64,000 nt of DNA from Arcobacter arenosus (GTDB lineage Bacteria > Campylobacterota > Campylobacteria > Campylobacterales > Arcobacteraceae): positions 310,001 to 374,000 of the forward strand of contig NZ_VANU01000001.1 of assembly GCF_005771535.1 (NCBI RefSeq), in the 5' to 3' direction. Both the position numbers and the translations under genes were made by a program. Below the pieces are notes generated by a model. It did no database searches. It worked only from the letters and a program-made list of their open reading frames with translations, and had not been told where the DNA came from. This document shows positions 37,559-42,512 of this stretch, piece after piece. Every line of letters begins with the position of its first letter. Within the stretch, counting starts at the first letter, position 1.

Positions 37559-38119
37559 CTAAGCCTTTATACTATCAAGAATTTTTTGCGCACCTTTAAA
37601 GCCACTATCAATTCCACCAAAAATATTAAATTCTTTTAAATTCATAGCACAAAATTCTATGATTTGATCTTTAAACATTTTTTTAAGTCTTCTATTTGCT
37701 CCATTTAAAAAATAAAAAAACTTAGGAGCCCCTGTTGTAGTATATACTTTTACATCTTTCCCTTTTAAGAGCCCTTTAGGAGTCCCTTTTTCATATGTGT
37801 ATGCAAATCCAGCAGAAAGATTCCAGTCAAAAAAATTCTTTAATATTGCAGGCATACTTCCCCACCAATAAGGAAAGACTATTACTATCTCATCAGCCTT
37901 TTTTATCTTTTCTTGATAATATAACATCTCCTTTGTTGGTTCAAAATGAAAGGCATTTTCTTCATATATAAAAAAATCTTGTCTTTTTTCATCTTTATAT
38001 AAATCAAGTATCTCAACACTATTTTTAATATCTTCATTTACTTTTTTTACCCTATTTGCTATGGCAAATGATAAACTGTCTTCTTTTGGGTTAGCAACAA
38101 TAACTAAAACATTTTTCAT
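37559..38119 (-). CDS. NAD(P)H-dependent flavin oxidoreductase (flavodoxin fold)
   Basis: A 186-residue flavodoxin-like reductase of the MdaB/KefF/NQO1 group. The N-terminal VLVIVANPKEDSLSFAIANRV binds FMN or FAD phosphate, and VFPYWWGSMPAILKNFFDW contains the family PxWW motif. It probably reduces quinones or electrophiles by two electrons. AAGGAAAA precedes the ATG. A 22-base site nearly identical to one in the TetR promoter lies right before its ribosome-binding site, so the adjacent TetR protein should repress it. Confidence 0.88.
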   Translation of the reverse strand: MKNVLVIVANPKEDSLSFAIANRVKKVNEDIKNSVEILDLYKDEKRQDFFIYEENAFHFEPTKEMLYYQEKIKKADEIVIVFPYWWGSMPAILKNFFDWNLSAGFAYTYEKGTPKGLLKGKDVKVYTTTGAPKFFYFLNGANRRLKKMFKDQIIEFCAMNLKEFNIFGGIDSGFKGAQKILDSIKA

Positions 38120-38130
38120 AATTTTTCCTT

Positions 38131-38152
38131 TATGGTACTACTTGGTACAAAA
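38131..38152 (-). promoter_or_regulatory. Putative TetR operator before the flavin reductase
   Basis: TGGTACTACTTGGTACAAAA lies 14 bases upstream of the reductase start. It differs at only three positions over 22 bases from a site overlapping the TetR gene's own promoter region (38781-38802). The recurring GTAC blocks give it partial dyad symmetry. Confidence 0.62.
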
Positions 38153-38780: not shown

Positions 38781-38802
38781 TATGGCACAACTTAGTACAA
38801 AA
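38781..38802 (-). promoter_or_regulatory. Putative autoregulatory TetR operator
   Basis: TGGCACAACTTAGTACAAAA (38783-38802) matches the site before the flavin reductase, with 19 of 22 bases the same when the two leading bases are included. It lies just upstream of the TetR start. Confidence 0.62.
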
Positions 38803-38822: not shown

Positions 38823-38865
38823 TGTGATTTCAATCACAGATTAAATACTTATTTTTTTCTACAAT
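38823..38865 (+). promoter_or_regulatory. Crp/Fnr-type site and -10 element before the DUF4242 gene
   Basis: TGTGA-TTTCAA-TCACA at 38823-38838 is a perfect Crp-type palindrome. A TACAAT at 38860-38865 gives a start of transcription near 38872, putting the palindrome centre at about -41.5, the class II activator position. The same spacing occurs at 41136-41178. Confidence 0.68.
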
Positions 38866-38915
38866 TATTCTGATGTACATCTAAAACTAATTATTAAATA
38901 AAAAAAGGAACTACA

Positions 38916-39212
38916 ATGGATCAACTAAAGTTTTTCATAGATACACATGATAAAAATAGTGAAACTTTTCCAGCTGGCATCACACCTGCACAAATGGAAA
39001 GTTTTTATAAAAAGTATGAAGAGGCATGTGCACAAGAAGGTGTTATATCTCTTCGAATTCACGTAGGTTTTGAAGATGGAAAAGCATTCTGTCTTAATAT
39101 GGCTTCTAATGCCCAAGCGGTAAAAAGAGTTCATGATAAAGTAGGACTGCCATTTGAAAGTATTACAGAAGTGAATACAATAAGTCCAGCTGACTTGGCT
39201 TTGTTAAACTAA
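38916..39212 (+). CDS. DUF4242 (SCO4226-like nickel-binding) protein
   Basis: A 98-residue protein matching the DUF4242 pattern: EACAQEGVISLRIHVGFEDGKAFCLNMASNAQAVKRVHDKVGLPFESITEV. The family has a ferredoxin-like dimeric fold, and one member (SCO4226) binds nickel. Its role is not known. AAAAAGGAAC precedes the start. A perfect Crp-type palindrome lies in its promoter, and the hairpin at 39223-39256 ends it. Confidence 0.78.
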   Translation: MDQLKFFIDTHDKNSETFPAGITPAQMESFYKKYEEACAQEGVISLRIHVGFEDGKAFCLNMASNAQAVKRVHDKVGLPFESITEVNTISPADLALLN

Positions 39213-39222
39213 TCACCTCATC

Positions 39223-39256
39223 TACACTTGTAATGCCATTTTACATTACAAGTGTA
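39223..39256. terminator. Bidirectional terminator between convergent genes
   Basis: Thirteen-base perfect arms, TACACTTGTAATG and its complement, with an eight-base loop containing the stop of the minus-strand transglutaminase gene. It ends both that gene and the DUF4242 gene. Confidence 0.8.
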
Positions 39257-39819
39257 TCTGGCAAATTATTGATAACATCTTTATAACTTTTGTAGCTACT
39301 TAAAACTTTTACAACTTCACCAACTGGCGAAGCATATAATTTTGGAATATCAAGTTCACCTTTAAATCTAATTTGAAATGCCAATTTCTCAGTAGGAAAA
39401 TCAAATTGTGCATTAACACCTTTTTTATTTCCTCTTGCATCAATTCTAAACCATCCATATTCTTCAAAATAAACAGCATTTAAGCCATGTAAACAGAATT
39501 TATCTCCACTTCCATCATCGTTCAATTTTAATCGTTGGTAAACTAATGCACATGGAATATTATTAGCTCTTAAAATTGCAGCTAAAAGGTGTGATTTAGA
39601 ATAACACCATCCAGTTTTATATTTCAATACGTCACTTGCTTTTAATGTAGTTTGATTATCTTTATGATCACCACTATGTCTAATTTCATCTCTAACATAT
39701 TCGAAAGATTTTTTTACTATTTCATGTTTAGATAAGCCTTTGGATAATTGAAAAGCAAGTTTTTTTATACCTATATCAGAATAATCAATTATCTCTGTTT
39801 CATTTAAAAATTCTTGCAT
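39241..39819 (-). CDS. Transglutaminase-like protein
   Basis: A 192-residue protein with the catalytic triad of the transglutaminase/cysteine protease-like superfamily: Cys in TGWCYSKSHLLAAILRANNIP, His in CLHGLNAVYF and Asp in RIDARGNK. It has no signal peptide, so it is probably cytoplasmic. The substrate is unknown. It starts eight bases after the peroxidase-like cytochrome gene and is probably cotranscribed with it, an unusual pairing. Confidence 0.82.
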   Translation of the reverse strand: MQEFLNETEIIDYSDIGIKKLAFQLSKGLSKHEIVKKSFEYVRDEIRHSGDHKDNQTTLKASDVLKYKTGWCYSKSHLLAAILRANNIPCALVYQRLKLNDDGSGDKFCLHGLNAVYFEEYGWFRIDARGNKKGVNAQFDFPTEKLAFQIRFKGELDIPKLYASPVGEVVKVLSSYKSYKDVINNLPDTLVM

Positions 39820-39827
39820 AATTGTTC

Positions 39828-41087
39828 CTATTTTATATATTCTACTATTGTACCATCAACTGATTTTAAAAATGAAATAATCTTATTTATCTCATTATTA
39901 CTTAAATTATTTCTAGTTTGATGAATACCCATAATTTTAATAACCTCTTCAAGCTTATCTACACTGCCATTATGAAAATATGGTTTTGTTTGAACAATAT
40001 TTCGTAATAAAGGAACTCTAAAATACTTTTCTTTACTTCTTAAACCTAAAAAACCTCCTTTATTCTCAAAGGGAAATGATATTTTTGTAGATAAATCTCT
40101 TTTTAGTTCAGTTGAATTACTTAAATGGCAAGACGTACATGCCGAGGAAGTGAGAATCTTTGATTTCTCTTCTTCTTTGACATGATTAAAAAAACCTTCA
40201 TTAATTAATTTATAATTCTTACTACCCATTGAAGATTTTAGATACTCTATTTTCTGTTTATCTGTGTAAATATTCATATTATTTAACAAGGATAATGTAT
40301 CAAAATAGTTTTTCTTAATCTGTTCGATATGGTTTGGCGTAGATAAACTCCATATAGTATGATATGTTAAAGGAAATTTTCTTAACTCTTGTCCTCCAAG
40401 GGCTATACCATTGTGACAGCCTGCACATCCTTTTGTAATAAATAAAGATAAGCCCTCTTTTTCATTTTTACTTAATGCATTTTTGTCACCAGTTAAAAAA
40501 TTATCATATCGACTCTTTGTAAGCAAGGTTTTTTCATAAATTGATATTGCTTTTGCAATCTTATCAAAAGTTATTTCTTCACTTCCAAATGCATTTTTAA
40601 AAAGTTGTTGATAAGGTACTTTTTCTTTTATTCGTTGAACAGCCAATTTAGGTGTTATTGCCATTTCAAATGGAGCTTGCAAAGGACCTTTTGCCTGTTC
40701 TTTTAAAGTTTTTTCTCTTCCATCCCAAAATAAACGTTTGGAAAAAGCTGTATTTAAAACAGTTGGTGTATTTAAATGAAAAGGGTTTTTTAAACCTTTA
40801 TATCCTATTGCTGTGGGAATAGAATCGGCTCCACCCTTACTAAAACTGTGACAAGAAGCGCAACTTATATCTCTACTTTTTGATAATTCTTTTTCGAAAA
40901 AAAGTTTCTTACCAAGTAAAACTTTCTGTTTTGATATATCAGCTTGTTCCAATTTTAATTCATACAATAATGATTTAAGATTACTTGGTGCTGGTCTTAA
41001 ACCATTTTTATAAGCTTTTAAAACCAATTCAAAATACTCATCTCCATATAAATTTATGACAATCAACACCATTAATAATAATTTCAT
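39828..41087 (-). CDS. Tri-haem cytochrome c peroxidase-like protein
   Basis: A 419-residue secreted cytochrome (signal peptide to about residue 15). It belongs to the MauG/cytochrome c peroxidase family: CASCH at 76-80, CAGCH at 221-225, then RVPLLRNIVQTKPYFHNGSV near the C-terminus. A third haem motif, CTSCH at 317-321, lies in an insertion of about 100 residues (245-345) that standard dihaem peroxidases lack. It may reduce peroxide or oxidise another substrate in the periplasm. AAGGAG sets the start. A Crp-type palindrome lies 49-64 bases upstream, and a TAAGAT on the minus strand at 41114-41109 sits at activator spacing. Confidence 0.85.
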   Translation of the reverse strand: MKLLLMVLIVINLYGDEYFELVLKAYKNGLRPAPSNLKSLLYELKLEQADISKQKVLLGKKLFFEKELSKSRDISCASCHSFSKGGADSIPTAIGYKGLKNPFHLNTPTVLNTAFSKRLFWDGREKTLKEQAKGPLQAPFEMAITPKLAVQRIKEKVPYQQLFKNAFGSEEITFDKIAKAISIYEKTLLTKSRYDNFLTGDKNALSKNEKEGLSLFITKGCAGCHNGIALGGQELRKFPLTYHTIWSLSTPNHIEQIKKNYFDTLSLLNNMNIYTDKQKIEYLKSSMGSKNYKLINEGFFNHVKEEEKSKILTSSACTSCHLSNSTELKRDLSTKISFPFENKGGFLGLRSKEKYFRVPLLRNIVQTKPYFHNGSVDKLEEVIKIMGIHQTRNNLSNNEINKIISFLKSVDGTIVEYIK

Positions 41088-41135
41088 AAATACTCCTTTT
41101 TTTAACTAATCTTAATCAAAAAATCTCTTTTGGTT

Positions 41136-41178
41136 TGTGATTAGCATCACATAAAAAAATTTTATTAGTAGATATAGT
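41136..41178 (+). promoter_or_regulatory. Crp/Fnr-type site between divergent cytochrome genes
   Basis: TGTGA-TTAGCA-TCACA at 41136-41151, with TATAGT at 41173-41178. The distance from palindrome centre to the -10 (29.5 bases) is identical to the site at 38823. The same palindrome is equally spaced from a TAAGAT for the opposite gene, so it could activate both directions. Confidence 0.7.
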
Positions 41179-41205
41179 TTCAAATAGAGATAAAAGGAGA
41201 AATAG

Positions 41206-41826
41206 ATGAAATATATAATTATAAGTGGAGTTACTATAATCGTTACATTATTAATAACAAAAGTATATACAGTAGTTAACTTAATGTATTTTAATAAATA
41301 TCCTAAAGAAAAAATAGAAATACTACAGAAGAAAACTGCTGAGACACAAATACTTAAAACTGGAAAAAATCTTTATATGGTTTATTGTACTTCATGTCAT
41401 GGTCAAGATGGAAAAGGGAATAATGAAAAAGCCCATAATCATACAAAAAGAATATCAAAAAAATCAGTTAGTTATGCAATCAAAAATGGTGCAAACAATT
41501 TTATAAGCTTATATCCTTCAGGGATGCCTTCACATCTCATTAATGCGAGTAATACAGATGAAGTGGCTCAATATGTCTCAAAAGGATTAAAAGAGACAAA
41601 ACCAAAAATATGGGATAAATGTGCCTCATGCCATGGAGAAAATGGAGAAGGTATTAATTATATAGCACCAAATATTAAAAGTTATACAGATGATTTAGTT
41701 ATAACTGTATTACTTAATGGTAAAAAAGGTGTTATTGGAACAATGCCTAGTTTTAAAGGCAGATTAACAACAGTTCAAATGAAATCTATTGCAATGTATA
41801 TTAGAAGTTTAGGAGAATTAAAATAA
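41206..41826 (+). CDS. Dihaem c-type cytochrome
   Basis: A 206-residue cytochrome with an N-terminal membrane anchor (about 3-22) and two haem motifs, CTSCHGQDGKG (about 65-75) and CASCHGENGEG (about 140-150), each followed by its own class I fold with Met-type ligands (YPSGMPSH, IGTMPSF). This is cytochrome c4-like. It could carry electrons to the peroxidase-like protein encoded divergently. AAAAGGAGA precedes the start. A Crp-type site sits at class II distance. Confidence 0.88.
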   Translation: MKYIIISGVTIIVTLLITKVYTVVNLMYFNKYPKEKIEILQKKTAETQILKTGKNLYMVYCTSCHGQDGKGNNEKAHNHTKRISKKSVSYAIKNGANNFISLYPSGMPSHLINASNTDEVAQYVSKGLKETKPKIWDKCASCHGENGEGINYIAPNIKSYTDDLVITVLLNGKKGVIGTMPSFKGRLTTVQMKSIAMYIRSLGELK

Positions 41827-41894
41827 AAATGGTAATAAATTAATAATGCTATAAAAAGCTTTGTGTAACAATTATAATGAAAAAAAGGATACAT

Positions 41895-42512
41895 ATGGAA
41901 CTTTTAGATTATCACTGTTTTGATGGTTTAAGCAAGGAAGAAGAAAAAAAAGTAATTCAAGATGCAAAAACTATTATGATACCAAGTGAGCAAATATTAT
42001 ATTATGCAGGAGATATTTGTAACGATGTATTATTTTTAAAAAGTGGAACAGTAAAAGTTTATATTCAGCCCAAGGAAATAGGTGTTGAGGAGATGACACT
42101 TTATGAATTAAATAGTGGTAGCCAATGTATTGTAAATTTATTTAGTACAATAAGTTCATCTAAAACCCTTGCAACAGCACAAACTATTACCCCAATTGAG
42201 GGATGGTTACTTCCAAAAGATACAGTCTTATGGCTTATTAATACTTCACCGTCTTTTCGTGAATTTAAAATGGATATTTTTGGTAAAAGATTAAACTCAC
42301 TTATAGCACTCATTACAGATGTTAAATTTACTACAATTGAACAAAGATTATTGAATTGGCTATATGTTCAAGGTAGAGACACAATAAAAATCACCCATGA
42401 TAAAATTGCTTCTATTATTGGAGTAACAAGAGAAACAGTTAGTAGAAATCTTAAAAAACTTGAACACCAAGGATATATAAAATTGGGACGTGGTGTTATA
42501 GCACTAACTTAA
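41895..42512 (+). CDS. Crp/Fnr-family transcription regulator
   Basis: A 205-residue regulator with a cyclic-nucleotide-binding-like beta barrel (about 15-115; LFLKSGTVKVYI), a dimerisation helix and a C-terminal helix-turn-helix (KITHDKIASIIGVTRETVSRNLKKLEHQGYI). The recognition helix has R-E-x-x-S-R, which fits half sites such as TGTGA or TTGAT. No N-terminal cysteine cluster is present, so it is not an Fe-S FNR. The ATG at 41895, with AAGGAT before it, is preferred over 41877. It probably acts at the two Crp-type sites nearby. Confidence 0.9.
   Translation: MELLDYHCFDGLSKEEEKKVIQDAKTIMIPSEQILYYAGDICNDVLFLKSGTVKVYIQPKEIGVEEMTLYELNSGSQCIVNLFSTISSSKTLATAQTITPIEGWLLPKDTVLWLINTSPSFREFKMDIFGKRLNSLIALITDVKFTTIEQRLLNWLYVQGRDTIKITHDKIASIIGVTRETVSRNLKKLEHQGYIKLGRGVIALT

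Follow-up and report, generated by a model that had tools for sequence, protein, structure and literature searches.

The 64,000-nucleotide stretch of Arcobacter arenosus DNA analysed here (the window) very probably carries, between positions 38,823 and 42,512, a compact, self-contained and locally acting class II regulon. In this regulon, a Crp/Fnr-family regulator would activate a DUF4242 gene and a di-haem cytochrome gene, and also a divergent gene encoding a peroxidase-like cytochrome. The proposal is based on two results: binding site, spacing, regulator and targets are, at the level of sequence, conserved together in 14 genomes, and the spacing is absent from 18 perfect sites that lie outside the regulator clusters of these same genomes. 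Class II activation is predicted from the sequence. We consider the regulatory wiring highly probable, and give the complete statement, in which this local class II regulon responds to a thiol-reactive signal, a probability of about 0.65. An earlier note on this DNA had already described a compact Crp/Fnr regulon with class II spacing, and the conservation in 14 genomes, together with an off-cluster control in which the spacing occurred in 0/36 directions, supports that description.

Palindromes, spacing and conservation

The two perfect TGTGA-N6-TCACA palindromes that the earlier note had reported are both present in the window (Table 1). The genome-wide motif search for which it had asked showed that the 3.13 Mb genome contains just these two perfect sites, both at this locus, while the reversed-pattern control gave 0. 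About 2.5 perfect sites per genome are expected from base composition; hence, the genome-wide number is not unusual and the rarity of the motif proves little. The unusual features are that a single locus holds both palindromes, the placement of the -10 hexamers, and the conservation. Near-matches to the palindrome were less frequent in the window than in shuffled sequence (21 versus a mean of 31.6), and sites with up to one mismatch were at chance level genome-wide (49, including the two perfect ones, versus 49 for the control). Neither was a wider regulon detected in the genome: none of the 47 one-mismatch sites is intergenic, according to a rough open reading frame (ORF) call, and has the hexamer TANNNT at 29.5 bases; the single site with TANNNT at this distance is located inside an ORF.

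The earlier note had placed a -10 hexamer 29.5 bases from the centre of each palindrome, and TACAAT and TATAGT are found exactly there. In addition, TAAGAT is present on the minus strand at 29.5 bases from the centre of palindrome 2, in agreement with its guess that the tri-haem gene might be a divergent target.

The regulator was searched for in 104 genomes of the family and in a sample of 397 genomes of the phylum. Besides the window, five family genomes contain a close orthologue (G084, G072, G100, G058 and G060; 68-89% identity); the remaining family matches form a second tier of 33-42% identity, plus more distant Crp/Fnr proteins. The phylum sample adds eight regulators of 46-54% identity (G303, G386, G374, G443, G235, G431, G429 and G373), giving 14 genomes with a close regulator, six of them Arcobacteraceae and eight from other families. 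A tree of 49 rows, of which 47 differ, places these 14 close regulators together on one side of a branch with support 100/99. A perfect TGTGAN6TCACA site is present in the gene cluster of the regulator in all 14 genomes. Together the genomes contain 41 perfect sites, of which 22 are in regulator clusters, one precedes an unlinked DUF4242 gene in G060, and 18 are located elsewhere. This G060 gene, which is on a separate contig from the regulator gene, still has the site and the spacing, and sites orthologous to palindrome 1 precede DUF4242 genes in G084, G058 and G060. Genomes G056, G067 and G068, in which there is no close regulator, have perfect 12-letter sites without the -10 hexamer.

To analyse the spacing we defined a target direction as one that leads downstream from one of 23 sites (the 22 in regulator clusters plus the one at the unlinked DUF4242 gene) to the start of a cluster gene, which gave 33 directions. 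The gene starts at most 90 bases from the palindrome centre in 32 of them, the exception being the regulator gene of G060 (238.5 bases). In 31 of the 33 target directions the first base of TANNNT is at a distance of exactly 29.5 bases from the palindrome centre, and the two exceptions, both from G429, have the hexamer at 30.5; the next-best offset accounts for only 6/33. At the same 23 sites, TANNNT is present at 29.5 bases in 1 of 13 non-target directions. The 18 off-cluster sites, a control drawn from the same 14 genomes, include nine that are intergenic according to the rough ORF call, and none of their 36 directions has TANNNT at this distance. A fixed distance to the -10 hexamer, as expected of class II promoters, is thus found in 31/33 directions, the transcription start itself being predicted from the -10 only. 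Two positions beyond the searched pattern are also kept in the target directions, namely a T at -1 (30/33) and an A at 18 (31/33). The -35 position coincides with the margin of the site and lacks TTGACA, and a generic promoter scan (26 promoters found versus 25.4 expected) did not have these promoters in its list, both of which are as expected if the promoters are activator-dependent. Finally, ten of the 23 sites, including palindrome 2 of the window, are two-way: they are flanked by divergent genes, and the hexamer is present at 29.5 bases on both sides in 10/10 cases.

Target genes and the regulator

The Pfam domains and CxxCH counts of the window's products agree with the targets named in the earlier note, i.e. 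a DUF4242 protein, a di-haem cytochrome and a tri-haem peroxidase-like cytochrome (Table 1). Both halves of the peroxidase-like protein match the di-haem peroxidase 1iqc, its peroxidase activity being predicted only. It contains three CxxCH motifs, the third of which sits in an insert. A third CxxCH is present in 10/10 aligned proteins and marks them as a tri-haem variant of the di-haem cytochrome c peroxidase/MauG type. The di-haem cytochrome has two CxxCH motifs, as seen in an alignment of seven relatives. A relative of the transglutaminase-like gene adjoins the regulator gene in G072 and is located about 3 kb away from it in G386 and G374.

Table 1. Features of the putative regulon in the window
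Feature	Position	Strand	Description
Palindrome 1	38823..38838		TGTGATTTCAATCACA, perfect TGTGA-N6-TCACA, centre 38830.5
-10 hexamer TACAAT, DUF4242 gene	38860..38865	+	starts 29.5 bases from centre 1
DUF4242/SCO4226-like protein, 98 amino acids	38916..39212	+	PF14026, 51.2 bits (cut-off 28.5)
Transglutaminase-like protein, 192 amino acids	39241..39819	-	PF01841; 8 bases behind the peroxidase-like gene; regulon membership uncertain
Tri-haem peroxidase-like cytochrome, 419 amino acids	39828..41087	-	PF03150 (CCP_MauG), 180.8 bits; predicted divergent target of palindrome 2
-10 hexamer TAAGAT, peroxidase-like gene	41109..41114	-	starts 29.5 bases from centre 2
Palindrome 2	41136..41151		TGTGATTAGCATCACA, centre 41143.5; predicted to serve both directions
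-10 hexamer TATAGT, di-haem cytochrome gene	41173..41178	+	starts 29.5 bases from centre 2
Di-haem cytochrome c, 206 amino acids	41206..41826	+	PF13442 and PF00034, two stretches each; N-terminal hydrophobic stretch
Crp/Fnr-family regulator, 205 amino acids	41895..42512	+	PF00027, PF13545; helix R-E-x-x-S-R; cysteines 8, 42 and 78

Counted over the 14 genomes, the genes under or directly behind the sites encode the tri-haem protein in 11 cases, a DsrE-like protein in nine, the di-haem cytochrome in seven and a DUF4242 protein in four. Other targets were seen in single genomes: in G058 a 107-amino-acid protein and, behind it, a flavocytochrome-c sulfide dehydrogenase; in G100 an ABM protein; and in G429 a DoxX protein encoded ahead of the tri-haem gene. 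Each of the 14 genomes has a tri-haem or a DsrE-like gene; G235, G431 and G373 have a DsrE-like gene in the cluster and no tri-haem gene there. The 341-amino-acid protein encoded between cytochrome and regulator in G386 and G374 gave no Pfam match. Near-whole matches to the tri-haem query (E ≤1.4e-152) were obtained in 6/104 family genomes, which are exactly the six with a close regulator; the other 36 family genomes that match the query at 1e-60 do so over about the front half only. Likewise, strong DsrE matches (<1e-20) were found in 7/397 phylum genomes, all of them belonging to the 11 genomes in this sample that have a close regulator, and four weaker matches were found in G039, G003, G342 and G029. 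A cysteine is kept in 9/9 DsrE-like proteins.

Some additional copies of target-type genes were observed. G084 (L033 6425-6886) and G060 (L065 1944-2384) have, after the first DUF4242 gene, a second copy whose N-terminus bears an RRxF export signal resembling that of the twin-arginine translocation pathway, which suggests a periplasmic, cofactor-bearing form. As for SCO4226, the available parts of the papers on this protein describe nickel binding and give no link to the present system. In G431 (L108 10375-10848) a second, different DsrE-family gene is located across the palindrome, without TANNNT at 29.5 bases.

The gene at the right end of the locus encodes, as the earlier note had stated, a Crp/Fnr regulator with an R-E-x-x-S-R helix. 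Both of its domains score above the cut-off (PF00027, 32.1 bits; PF13545, 49.7 bits), and fold comparison gave a full-length match to the Crp/Fnr fold with Z up to 17.7. From the structure model (mean predicted local distance difference test score 84.3) we took the secondary structure only. The recognition helix, GVTRETVSRNL, contributes R179, E180, S183 and R184, and the R-E pair is present in 14/14 close regulators. According to a published rule, given in the excerpts of PMC1274295 that were available, R180 pairs with G3 and E181 with A6 of the site; the combination of an R-E helix with TGTGAN6TCACA fits this rule. Other regulators of this genome were rejected as users of the sites: there are five HTH_Crp_2 matches and only that of the window has R-E-x-x-S-R, the other four being two with P-E-x-x-S-R, one with R-Q-x-x-S-T and one that looks MarR-like.

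In several genomes (e.g. G072, G058 and G429) the regulator gene lies a short distance behind a controlled gene, an arrangement that suggests positive feedback. The corresponding gap in the window, between the cytochrome and regulator genes, is 68 bases long (41827-41894) and contains TAATAATGCTATAAAA, which is also found in G084 and may represent a distinct promoter for the regulator gene. A short fragment in G032 (L030 1501-1617), with one internal TGA, shares 85% identity with the final 43 residues of the regulator and is perhaps the relic of a lost regulator copy.

Cysteines and the candidate signals

In FNR, four cysteines hold a [4Fe-4S] cluster. The earlier note had remarked that these are absent here, and indeed the window protein has only cysteines 8, 42 and 78, of which 78 alone is common to the 14 close regulators. 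Cys78 is invariant in 27/27 aligned relatives. It directly precedes helix 79-87 of the structure model, in a region that we take to be the start of the phosphate-binding cassette of cyclic AMP (cAMP) regulators. Each of the 14 close regulators has a second cysteine, either at position 42 (8/14) or at position 129 (8/14), two of them having both. Haem, nitric oxide or a small ligand had been suggested as signal in the earlier note; these remain on the list, but in view of the conservation of Cys78 (27/27) and of a second cysteine (14/14) it should be led by thiol-reactive signals. We favour such a signal, with reactive sulfur placed first and peroxide second, on the basis of the invariant Cys78, the replaced cAMP-contact positions (see below), and the DsrE-like, sulfide dehydrogenase and peroxidase partners in relatives. 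Reactive sulfur is placed first because, apart from the peroxidase-like gene, no partner is as frequent as the DsrE-like gene, because of the sulfide dehydrogenase of G058, and because sulfur genes are located by sister regulators (G039 and G062). Peroxide comes second because of the tri-haem protein. Reactive sulfur as the signal falls just short of even odds in our estimate. More tentative is the specific proposal that the activator senses reactive sulfur directly via the cysteine at the start of the phosphate cassette, and that one palindrome drives two divergent class II promoters which compete for the dimer.

The regulon would probably work as follows. A dedicated Crp/Fnr-family activator would bind TGTGA(T)-N4-(A)TCACA palindromes centred at about -41.5 and, acting as class II activator, would turn on a local redox set composed of the tri-haem peroxidase-like cytochrome, the di-haem cytochrome c and the DUF4242 protein; the set of the relatives would include DsrE-like proteins and, in one genome, the flavocytochrome-c sulfide dehydrogenase. 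A single symmetrical palindrome would often drive two divergent promoters. Two class II promoters that face away from one palindrome would bring a polymerase to each side of a single dimer; firing would thus probably alternate between them, which would couple the output of peroxidase and cytochrome to a single switch. The activator would feed back positively on its own gene. The signal would be thiol-reactive, with reactive sulfur (sulfane sulfur or polysulfide) as the likeliest candidate, and would be read at Cys78 and its partner cysteine, and the products of the switch would be electron-handling, perhaps sulfur- or peroxide-handling, outside the inner membrane.

The same wiring could serve another signal. 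A thiol switch between Cys78 and either Cys42 or Cys129 could sense hydrogen peroxide, with periplasmic peroxide reduction as the output. The tri-haem gene is a target in 11/14 genomes, regulator and full-length tri-haem gene co-occur in 6/104 family genomes, and there are two cysteines per sensor half, all of which would suit a peroxide sensor. This signal is nevertheless unlikely in our judgement: in 3/14 genomes (G235, G431 and G373) the cluster contains the DsrE-like gene but lacks a tri-haem gene, sulfur-handling genes are present in sister clusters, and the peroxidase activity of the tri-haem protein is only predicted. Distinctly less probable is that the regulator senses nitric oxide or a haem-bound gas, as its relatives HcpR and NssR do. 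A cysteine can bind haem, which counts in favour of this signal; so does the HcpR motif, which is likewise TGTGAN6TCACA in the available excerpts of PMC545781 and PMC1274295. However, none of the 23 sites has hcp or a globin gene directly under it, and the 14 close regulators have no sensor-half histidine in common.

A cyclic-nucleotide-dependent activator, Crp-like in both ligand and site, appears improbable to a still greater degree. The regulator has the CRP fold and a cNMP_binding domain, a class III cyclase is encoded in the genome, and cAMP-binding regulators are among the top matches when folds are compared, a rank that speaks for the fold and not for the ligand. In a profile alignment, however, the Glu and Arg positions of E. 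coli CRP that we take to be its cAMP contacts hold other residues, and the regulon is tiny and local. Chance palindromes with a coincidental spacing, for which one could invoke the ~2.5 perfect sites expected per genome, were rejected and deserve hardly any credence, given that the exact spacing is conserved in 31/33 directions in 14 genomes versus 0/36 off-cluster.

Several observations weigh against the favoured reading, that of a local class II regulon with a thiol-reactive signal. The 33 directions were chosen by gene position, yet after the spacing was already known, and the 14 genomes share ancestry, so that the directions are not independent trials. The position of the partner cysteine is not fixed (42 or 129). 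Cys78 may be structural, since sister-clade regulators that have other sites retain it as well. Nine sister regulators have an R-E helix and no perfect TGTGAN6TCACA in the stretches examined, which means that an R-E helix is not sufficient to predict the site. The genome of the window gave no DsrE match at 1e-10, and the window's own targets name no sulfur chemistry. Lastly, with a class III cyclase present, absence of a cyclase cannot be used to exclude a cyclic nucleotide.

Related systems and neighbouring loci

The sister-clade regulators share ~31-45% identity, and many have R-V in the helix instead of R-E. No perfect TGTGAN6TCACA was found in the sister-clade loci examined, including those of the nine regulators with an R-E helix. 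Another palindrome, TGTAACN4GTTACA, adjoins sister regulators in G039 (two sites; helix TSRVVVSR), G020 and G261. It was found by eye in G039 and then by a scan that required the 29.5-base spacing; as the scan presupposed it, the spacing is no independent test there. Genome-wide, 12 genomes contain nine such sites (five for the reversed-pattern control), four of them beside the regulator, and in G020 no gene was seen to start just behind the site. The gene row of G039 (L187 2865-5758), with two TGTAACN4GTTACA palindromes, is DsrE, redoxin, sister-clade regulator, DUF302 and rhodanese, and the sister-clade regulator of G062 sits with two Cys/Met pyridoxal phosphate enzymes. The annotation covered few sister loci; no sulfur-handling genes were seen in two others, L039 and L040.

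Class II promoters of E. coli CRP are characterized by the TGTGAN6TCACA motif and the -41.5 geometry. The system described here resembles CRP in fold, in the R-E-x-x-(x)-R helix positions, in the motif and in a site centre at about -41.5; it differs by the replaced cAMP-contact positions, a local regulon of few genes, and the ten of 23 sites that are two-way at identical spacing. The closest solved sequence (E 1.6e-35) is 3dv8, the putative Crp/Fnr regulator EUBREC_1222 of Eubacterium rectale, which has cysteines aligned with Cys42 and Cys78, but its identity is only 23% by structure alignment. According to the excerpts of PMC545781 and PMC1274295, HcpR of Desulfovibrio recognizes wTGTGAnnnnnnTCACAw, controls hcp and frdX, and responds to nitrosative stress. 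It shares with the present regulator the Crp/Fnr family, the TGTGAN6TCACA motif, Arg180 in the recognition helix and a regulator gene that is often beside the target, whereas hcp is absent among the genes under the 23 sites (DUF4242, cytochromes, DsrE, flavocytochrome-c sulfide dehydrogenase, ABM, DoxX and regulator). NssR of Campylobacter jejuni, as far as the excerpts of PMC1274295 describe it, is also a local activator of the Crp/Fnr family and from the same phylum; it has A180/Q181, a TTAACnnnnGTTAA site and a globin target, whereas here R-E, TGTGAN6TCACA and cytochrome, DsrE and DUF4242 targets are found. CstR, SqrR and BigR have, in the excerpts of PMC9774590, two cysteines that react with sulfane sulfur, and by analogy we propose the same here; those proteins are repressors of the CsoR and ArsR families, whereas ours is a Crp/Fnr protein and probably an activator. 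A Crp-like protein of Acinetobacter is persulfidated, as stated in the excerpts of PMC7315123.

Two other elements were noticed. The near-identical palindromes GTACTACTTGGTAC (38135-38148) and GTACTAAGTTGTGC (38785-38798) precede a flavodoxin-fold oxidoreductase gene (37559-38119) and the adjoining TetR-family gene. With one mismatch, this pattern occurs nine times in the window versus 2.8 expected, and the two palindromes are likely a TetR operator pair, independent of the Crp/Fnr regulon. Downstream of the orthologous regulator cluster of G060 (L037 12300-16889), a long row of ATTTCAATACATCATATGTTTTGGTTCGAG repeats with a spacing of ~65 bases looks like an array of clustered regularly interspaced short palindromic repeats (CRISPR).

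Our searches of the open-licence PMC literature listed no report of this regulon, of a sulfur-responsive Crp/Fnr regulator, or of a link to DsrE or the peroxidase. Local Crp/Fnr regulons with class II placement are already known as a kind; this regulon is new, and its novel part would, if true, be a Crp/Fnr protein that senses sulfur directly. The compact set of regulator, site and targets suits a single construct, and makes strict predictions regarding the site centre at -41.5, the two-way promoters and Cys78. If the signal is reactive sulfur, the Crp/Fnr family would join the sulfur sensors, and the DsrE-like and DUF4242 proteins would acquire a regulated context.

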